From contig CALSRJ010000001.1 of assembly GCA_943788725.1 (NCBI GenBank), forward strand, positions 310,001 through 374,000: a DNA stretch of 64,000 nt, written 5' to 3'. The stretch is from an uncultured Flavobacteriales bacterium (GTDB lineage: Bacteria > Bacteroidota > Bacteroidia > Flavobacteriales_G > Salibacteraceae). The notes under the pieces are model-generated. The model was not told where the DNA came from and ran no database searches. It was given only the letters and a program-made list of their open reading frames with translations. The number at the start of each line of letters is the position of its first letter. Within the stretch, counting starts at the first letter, position 1. This document shows, one piece after another, positions 56,580 through 57,839 of the stretch. The translations under genes and the position numbers were made by a program.

Positions 56580-57839
56580 ATGTTGGATCGGACTTTTAGA
56601 CTTCGTTTTATGCTCTTGTTTTTGTGCGCCCTGACCGCACCTGCTACATGCGCTCAAGACTGCGTTGGCGGTCAGATTTGCAGCAAGGAAGCCTATCTCT
56701 ACGGTCGATTTGAAGTAGCCATGCGCTCGGCTGGCGTAAGCGGAGTCATCTCCTCCTTTTTTCTCTACAACTTGGACCTAGGATGCAATTGGCCAGAGGA
56801 GAACAATGAAATCGACATTGAGATGACGGGGAATAGCGAGGACGTCCTATTCACCACACACTATCCAGGTCCTTGGTACATAACCGACACGTATTCTCCT
56901 TCCTTTAATCCACACGATAGCCTCCACCACTACGCCATTGAATGGGAGCCCGGCATTGTGCGCTGGTTTGTAGACGGTGCATTGGTCACCACCCAAGATC
57001 ACAGCACGATAGATGAATTGATCTACCCCTTGCGGGTCATGATGAACCTTTGGGCCGTAGACAACGAAGCTTGGGCTGGGCCATGGGATACCGTGAGCAT
57101 GCCGGTGACCGCCTTGTACGACTACGTAAAGTGCTATTCCTACGCTCCAGGCACAGGAGATTATGGAACGAACAACCATTTCAAACTAGACTGGGAGGAG
57201 TCGTTCAACACCTTGGACGCAGAACGATGGACGGTGGAGCAATTTGGGGGGTTCGGAGGGAATTTCTGTTCCTTCGAGTCTTCTTCCGTGGTGATCGATA
57301 GCGGCTTGATGACGCTCCTTATTGAAGCCCCACAGGCACATGCGCAAGTGCCCACTACCTTCTCTGTAGACCTAAGCGCTGAATCGCTCTCGACTTTAGA
57401 TGTAATCTACTTGAACGGCAGCTTCAATAATTGGTGTGGGTCCTGCCAACCCATGACGGAGCAAGACGGGATCTGGACGGCAACTGTAGACTTAGATCCA
57501 GGGAAATACGAATACCTTTTCACCAAGAATACGTGGGAAGAAAACGGGAGCGCACCGTACCAAAGCGAATGCGATTACAATCCTTGCGATGAATGGTTGA
57601 ATTACGGAGTGCTTGTTCCTGTGGATGCCGCTCCCATTGACCTAGAAACGGTCTGCTGGGGCGAATGTTATGCATGTGCACCTGTCTCGACCCGGTTGAT
57701 TCCGAATCAAAACAGAAAGAAAATCCAAGCGGTTTTCGATTTGATGGGACGGCCAGCCAGCGCTTCATCAACTGGCGTTTTGATCTATCAGCATGACGAC
57801 GGCTCCTTCGAAAAGAAAGTGGCCTTACCTACCCATTGA
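56580..57839 (+). CDS. GH16 beta-glucanase with circularly permuted strands and CBM48-like domain
   Basis: 419 residues after a signal peptide (about 1-26). The catalytic segment starts directly at YLYGRFEVAMRSAGVSG and has the active site NEIDIEM (Glu77, Asp79, Glu81). The usual first strands of GH16 are not at the N-terminus but at residues 203-250 (LDWEESFNTLDAERWTVE to SSVVIDSGLMTLLIEAP). This order matches the natural permutation known in Fibrobacter lichenase. Residues 260-350 form a glycogen-binding-like module (VIYLNGSFNNWCGSC, GKYEYLF). A sorting-domain-like tail (FDLMGRPASASSTGVLIY) ends it. Likely a secreted beta-1,3-1,4-glucanase. Confidence 0.87.
   Translation: MLDRTFRLRFMLLFLCALTAPATCAQDCVGGQICSKEAYLYGRFEVAMRSAGVSGVISSFFLYNLDLGCNWPEENNEIDIEMTGNSEDVLFTTHYPGPWYITDTYSPSFNPHDSLHHYAIEWEPGIVRWFVDGALVTTQDHSTIDELIYPLRVMMNLWAVDNEAWAGPWDTVSMPVTALYDYVKCYSYAPGTGDYGTNNHFKLDWEESFNTLDAERWTVEQFGGFGGNFCSFESSSVVIDSGLMTLLIEAPQAHAQVPTTFSVDLSAESLSTLDVIYLNGSFNNWCGSCQPMTEQDGIWTATVDLDPGKYEYLFTKNTWEENGSAPYQSECDYNPCDEWLNYGVLVPVDAAPIDLETVCWGECYACAPVSTRLIPNQNRKKIQAVFDLMGRPASASSTGVLIYQHDDGSFEKKVALPTH

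Follow-up and report, generated by a model that had tools for sequence, protein, structure and literature searches.

We conclude that the gene at positions 56,580 to 57,839 probably encodes a secreted retaining endo-beta-1,3-1,4-glucanase of the licheninase type. The enzyme resembles subfamily GH16_21, and its catalytic domain carries a natural circular permutation of the Fibrobacter type, most likely of single origin, followed by a CBM20/48-fold module that would hold a glucan. The window, that is, the whole stretch of 64,000 nucleotides that was analysed (G000:C1:310001-374000), belongs to a genome of 2.93 Mb. The Fibrobacter lichenase is a textbook instance of natural circular permutation that, to our knowledge, is usually cited as a single case. 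The permuted lichenase core is of a known kind; what is new is the breadth of its occurrence, its unity as a single clade and the fused module. In the open literature, to which our search was confined, we found no report of permuted lichenases outside Fibrobacter, and earlier reports in subscription papers are possible; the main text of the GH16 subfamily paper names neither permutation nor Fibrobacter. The parts of the gene are as follows.

56580..57839, + strand: whole gene, 419 amino acids plus stop (84% full-length identity to the relative L007; gene-wide dN/dS 0.065)
56580..56654, + strand: signal peptide, residues ~1-25 (fast-evolving segment, modelled as an N-terminal helix; cleavage site predicted from sequence alone)
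56655..57338, + strand: circularly permuted GH16 catalytic domain, residues 26-253 (alignment, profile, model, superposition)
56793..56804, + strand: insert PEEN, residues 72-75, after Trp71 and ahead of the catalytic strand (alignment of 45 rows)
56808..56822, + strand: catalytic motif E77-I-D79-I-E81, nucleophile, helper and acid/base (invariant in 45 aligned relatives; equivalent to EVDIE of the Fibrobacter lichenase)
57180..57338, + strand: strands that open a standard GH16 domain, here its C-terminal end, residues 201-253 (alignment, tree, model)
57345..57689, + strand: CBM20/48-fold module with conserved cysteines, residues ~256-370 (Pfam, model, fold matches)
57711..57836, + strand: short C-terminal tail, residues 378-419 (conserved among clade members; candidate sorting role)

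Strand order of the catalytic domain

The earlier note on this DNA described an open reading frame in which the GH16 active site comes first and the strands that normally open the domain come last, and took this for a natural permutation of the Fibrobacter type. Reading frame, coordinates and strand order all agree with that description, and the permutation is borne out by colinear alignment and by structure superposition. Residues 26-248 of the protein (P0001) form one continuous alignment with residues 5-228 of the Fibrobacter succinogenes lichenase (3axd, E 7.7e-32), with a colinear match to 1mve over the same residues; the sequence match to the standard-order Bacillus lichenases is limited to residues 16/18 to ~185. 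A hidden Markov model of the permuted form gives a single unbroken match spanning positions 2-219 of its 220, and the same model splits into two matches in swapped order on conventional GH16 proteins. Furthermore, the profile of the permuted family finds the Fibrobacter lichenase at E 1e-73.

The AlphaFold2 model, built from 45 aligned sequences, has a pLDDT mostly above 90 in the GH16 part, a value to be read in the light of an input alignment that consisted of permuted relatives and of Fibrobacter structures that were probably in the training set of the predictor. Residues 25-253 of this model superpose on residues 4-233 of the Fibrobacter enzyme (1zm1; Z 33.5, rmsd 1.7 A over 226 residues). 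The engineered permutants 1cpn and 1cpm are matched over the whole domain (28-251/254), and the match to the natural Bacillus enzymes is confined to model residues 23-188. The opening strands would be supplied from the domain's own C-terminal end, which would leave both the sandwich and the active site whole.

The protein shares with the Fibrobacter succinogenes 1,3-1,4-beta-D-glucanase (1mve, 1zm1, 3axd) the permuted order, the fold, the catalytic triad and the clade, but the two are only 29% identical, and the present protein adds the CBM20/48-fold module, a different tail and an insert of four residues ahead of the catalytic strand. The Bacillus licheninases of GH16_21 (1gbg, 1mac) are the nearest standard-order relatives in the tree and have the EXDXE motif and the Phe and Trp positions in common with it; the natural Bacillus enzymes are of standard order, whereas the permutation is natural here; their engineered permutants 1cpm and 1cpn match end to end. 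In a second class of the window's phylum, lichenase-like GH16 proteins (L131-L134, L140-L148) have the opening motif W..G/A.HTF.GN in common with the permuted clade and are up to 46% identical on the NEIDIE-side part. Their strand order is standard, with the motif first in L131-L134, and they thus present the un-permuted layout at close range.

Active site and substrate

The residues E77, D79 and E81 are kept in all 45 aligned rows, and Phe61, Tyr63, Trp158 and Trp165 in all or nearly all of them. Given that the retaining mechanism is established for GH16, E77 would attack and E81 would act as acid/base with the assistance of D79. The described features of GH16_21 are an EXDXE motif, a Phe at subsite -1, a Trp at +1 and a length of ~210 residues (PMC6827312). 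The motif is present here as E77-D79-E81, and by alignment and numbering the Phe platform at -1 corresponds to Phe61 and the Trp at +1 to Trp165. Among the other subsite aromatics of 1GBG, Tyr94 may correspond to Tyr63 and Trp103 to Trp71, the latter only across the four-residue insert, and the Tyr24 site is Phe-like. The position of Fibrobacter Trp203 is not Trp in this protein. The insert at residues 72-75 is found in all 13 CBM-bearing rows of Bacteroidota and is absent from the other 32 rows; with the wider alignment resolving it as a four-residue insert next to a retained Trp71, the idea that Asn75 replaces a lichenase Trp was dropped. Together with the missing Trp203, the insert implies that subsite use may differ from that of the Fibrobacter enzyme.

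Selection on the gene is purifying. Comparison with the nearest relative gives dN/dS values of 0.034 for the GH16 part, 0.036 for the module (with synonymous sites close to saturation) and 0.22 for the tail. Under such selection, and with the catalytic residues and most of the lichenase subsite aromatics retained, the protein is most likely an active mixed-linkage beta-glucanase. As to the substrate named in the earlier note, beta-1,3-1,4-glucan, we likewise infer action on it, from the placement of the protein beside lichenases and from the conserved subsite residues. The NCBIfam equivalog model for the beta-glucanase BglS (NF047856) scores below its cut-off (104.8 vs 300 bits) and covers residues 26-184 only, so the protein is not assigned to this equivalog; the model is in standard order, and the score is therefore compatible with membership of the wider subfamily. 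According to its title, PMC5460208 reports insoluble mixed-linkage glucan from brown algal walls, which means that land plants are not the only source of the substrate.

Could the permuted fold have been kept while its specificity shifted within this clade, for instance to laminarin (beta-1,3-linked) or another beta-glucan, in connection with the insert and the module? Compatible with such a shift are the clade-specific insert at residues 72-75, the copies of the module that, in the same genome, adjoin a GH16 laminarinase within a SusC/SusD-type locus, a GH17-like gene (named by eye) next to another GH16 gene of this genome, and a standard-order GH16 gene no more than 2.5 kb from the permuted one at 15 of 24 Neomarinimicrobiota loci. 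We nevertheless consider it unlikely, given that the EXDXE motif comes without the extra residue of the laminarinases, that the Phe platform and the +1 Trp are kept, and that the clade falls beside lichenases in the tree, far from laminarinases. Activity on mixed-linkage glucan remains the preferred reading.

The module, the tail and the genomic setting

The earlier note also proposed a CBM48-like or glycogen-binding-like module behind the catalytic domain. The module is real and its predicted fold matches AMPK and CBM20, although the Pfam scores are borderline and the genomic context points to beta-glucan loci. In the full protein, the two models, AMPK1_CBM and CBM_48, fall just short of their cut-offs (26.3 against 26.8 in one case, 21.8 against 22.4 in the other); with the module alone, the scores are 27.0 and 23.6, just above both cut-offs. 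Modelled alone, the module is predicted to have the fold of a starch-binding domain, with a Foldseek E of 3e-5 to AMPK; the CBM20 and AMPK domains match it with Z scores of 9 to 10.6. The AMPK glycogen-binding and CBM20 domains bind alpha-glucans. With the glycogen-binding module of the AMPK beta-subunit and with CBM20/CBM48 the present module shares the fold and the FNxW motif, and its Trp70 (Trp319 of the protein) aligns with an AMPK Trp; unlike them, it has conserved cysteine pairs and, in the loci that were read, recurs in loci of the beta-glucan type and not with amylases.

Within the same genome, the module is closest in sequence to a tandem array of three copies in one secreted protein, whose gene (L174, G000:C5:190000-205000) adjoins a GH16 gene of the laminarinase type and genes for a PKD lipoprotein, SusD and a SusC-like receptor. 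At least five relatives (L205, L207, L210, L211, L214) have the same neighbourhood of GH16 and module protein, and in others secreted proteins consist largely of eight to nine tandem copies (L204:876-8332, L206:2998-6399). In Neomarinimicrobiota (L063, L064, L065, L070, L084) the module lies N-terminal to the permuted GH16 domain, whereas Bacteroidota have the reverse order. The module would hold the enzyme on a glucan, and a beta-glucan ligand is plausible. A broader scenario, which we put forward tentatively and at somewhat less than even chances, is that a cysteine-rich module of the CBM20/48 fold became a beta-glucan binder in Bacteroidota and Neomarinimicrobiota, where it was fused to either end of permuted lichenases and multiplied into secreted arrays of three to nine copies, several of them beside GH16 laminarinases.

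The array pair at L204 adjoins, by eye, a NUDIX-type regulator and a glycosidase-like gene. Elsewhere in the window's genome (L175, G000:C5:245000-262000), a sugar transporter, a GH16 gene, a GH30-like gene and a large glycoside phosphorylase-like gene, identified by eye, stand in a row.

The suggestion that the protein ends in a sorting-domain-like tail fared less well. The sorting-domain models PF18962 and TIGR04183 find no match in the protein. Members of the clade conserve the tail, but its reading as a sorting signal shared with other proteins was rejected, with no further copy found in the genome and a weak profile match to true sorting tails of relatives (18 aligned columns, probability 55%). 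The genome encodes the type IX secretion component SprA (2480.7 bits), and the protein may be exported by this system.

The permuted gene itself is solitary, outside any beta-glucan locus, and is flanked by dnaN and a rhomboid-type gene (identified by eye from sequence); this order is kept in three further genomes and absent from the more distant loci examined. The same genome has three other GH16 genes, all of standard order, so the permuted one need not be the organism's main beta-glucanase. A phage or mobile origin of the gene was rejected: a search of viral contigs found no relatives of the protein, and the plasmid matches listed cover at most 43% of it, in the NEIDIE-side part only.

Origin and spread of the permutation

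The expected occurrence of the permuted form in Bacteroidota was confirmed; the nearest named relatives, among the matches listed, are Flavobacteriales MAGs. Full-length colinear matches come from the window's genus, family and class and more often from other classes of the phylum. The search for the same strand order in other GH16 proteins yielded 120 fetched open reading frames with the permuted order, from Bacteroidota, Ignavibacteriota, Neomarinimicrobiota, Calditrichota and others, a figure that exceeds the number of distinct genes, since the same gene was in some cases fetched from more than one collection. A scan of named genomes found relatives at 416 loci, of which the best 80 were kept. 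The permuted form is present in all 80 of these: 24 in Neomarinimicrobiota (listed as Fidelibacterota), 21 each in Bacteroidota and Ignavibacteriota, 5 in Calditrichota, and the rest in KSB1, Chlorobiota and others. One locus is from the named strain Portibacter marinus 10MBP4-2-1, which is not a MAG, so the permuted order is not an artefact of metagenome assembly.

Two observations on individual loci may be added. The permuted lichenase on a contig labelled Caldisericaceae (L091) groups with Calditrichota sequences, through either mis-binning or transfer. The 24 Neomarinimicrobiota loci with 15 close standard-order GH16 neighbours, mentioned above, are those within the best 80 of 416; loci with a standard-order GH16 gene near the permuted one are L066, L072, L079, L092, L097, L100-L102, L112, L117, L118, L120, L121 and L126.

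For the main tree, the two halves of the domain were rearranged into one common order, with 52 permuted rows including Fibrobacter. All permuted rows and the Fibrobacter enzyme form one clade (100/97), which is present in 100% of bootstrap trees, is sister to the standard-order lichenases of the Bacillus type and excludes the standard-order lichenases from the second class of the window's phylum. One clade that includes the Fibrobacter enzyme fits a single origin, which the sequences make the most likely history. The permutation would have arisen once, in an ancestor of one lichenase clade whose present members come from Bacteroidota, Ignavibacteriota, Neomarinimicrobiota, Calditrichota and Fibrobacter, and would have spread by descent, by transfer or by both.

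Alternatively, Bacteroidota and Fibrobacter might have been permuted independently at the same favoured loop, the one also used in the engineered 1cpm and 1cpn. By superposition, the natural break lies near the engineered site, which is 2AYH/59 (PMC2395249), and a first quick tree of the NEIDIE-side half only, with a distant laminarinase outgroup, placed the root inside the permuted rows and required two changes. The latter result is attributable to the attachment point of the long laminarinase branch: when the laminarinases are omitted, the tree of this half requires one change (SH-aLRT 97), and a tree in which the permuted rows are held as one clade has a likelihood 31 log units higher (p-AU 0.857). 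Two origins were therefore not upheld and, against the 100/97 clade in the tree of both halves, are quite improbable. A single origin is thus retained. That the permuted match is merely a slice through a tandem GH16 duplication, whose C1-N2 portion would in principle look permuted, or that residues 203-250 form a separate second domain, the outcome that the earlier note named as fatal to its claim, can be dismissed with near certainty: a search for a second GH16 copy within the reading frame, which has one copy of each half, found none, all 120 permuted reading frames are single-domain, and in the model residues 201-253 are the missing strands that complete the same sandwich.

If these results hold, the Fibrobacter lichenase is one member of a broad and old family that spans several phyla, and standard-order GH16 models cover only about two thirds of the length of the permuted domains. 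Since close relatives of standard order, up to 46% identical, exist, the path from the standard to the permuted form would be open to study in natural sequences. Furthermore, the link of a module with a starch-binding fold to beta-glucan loci would represent a testable change of ligand.
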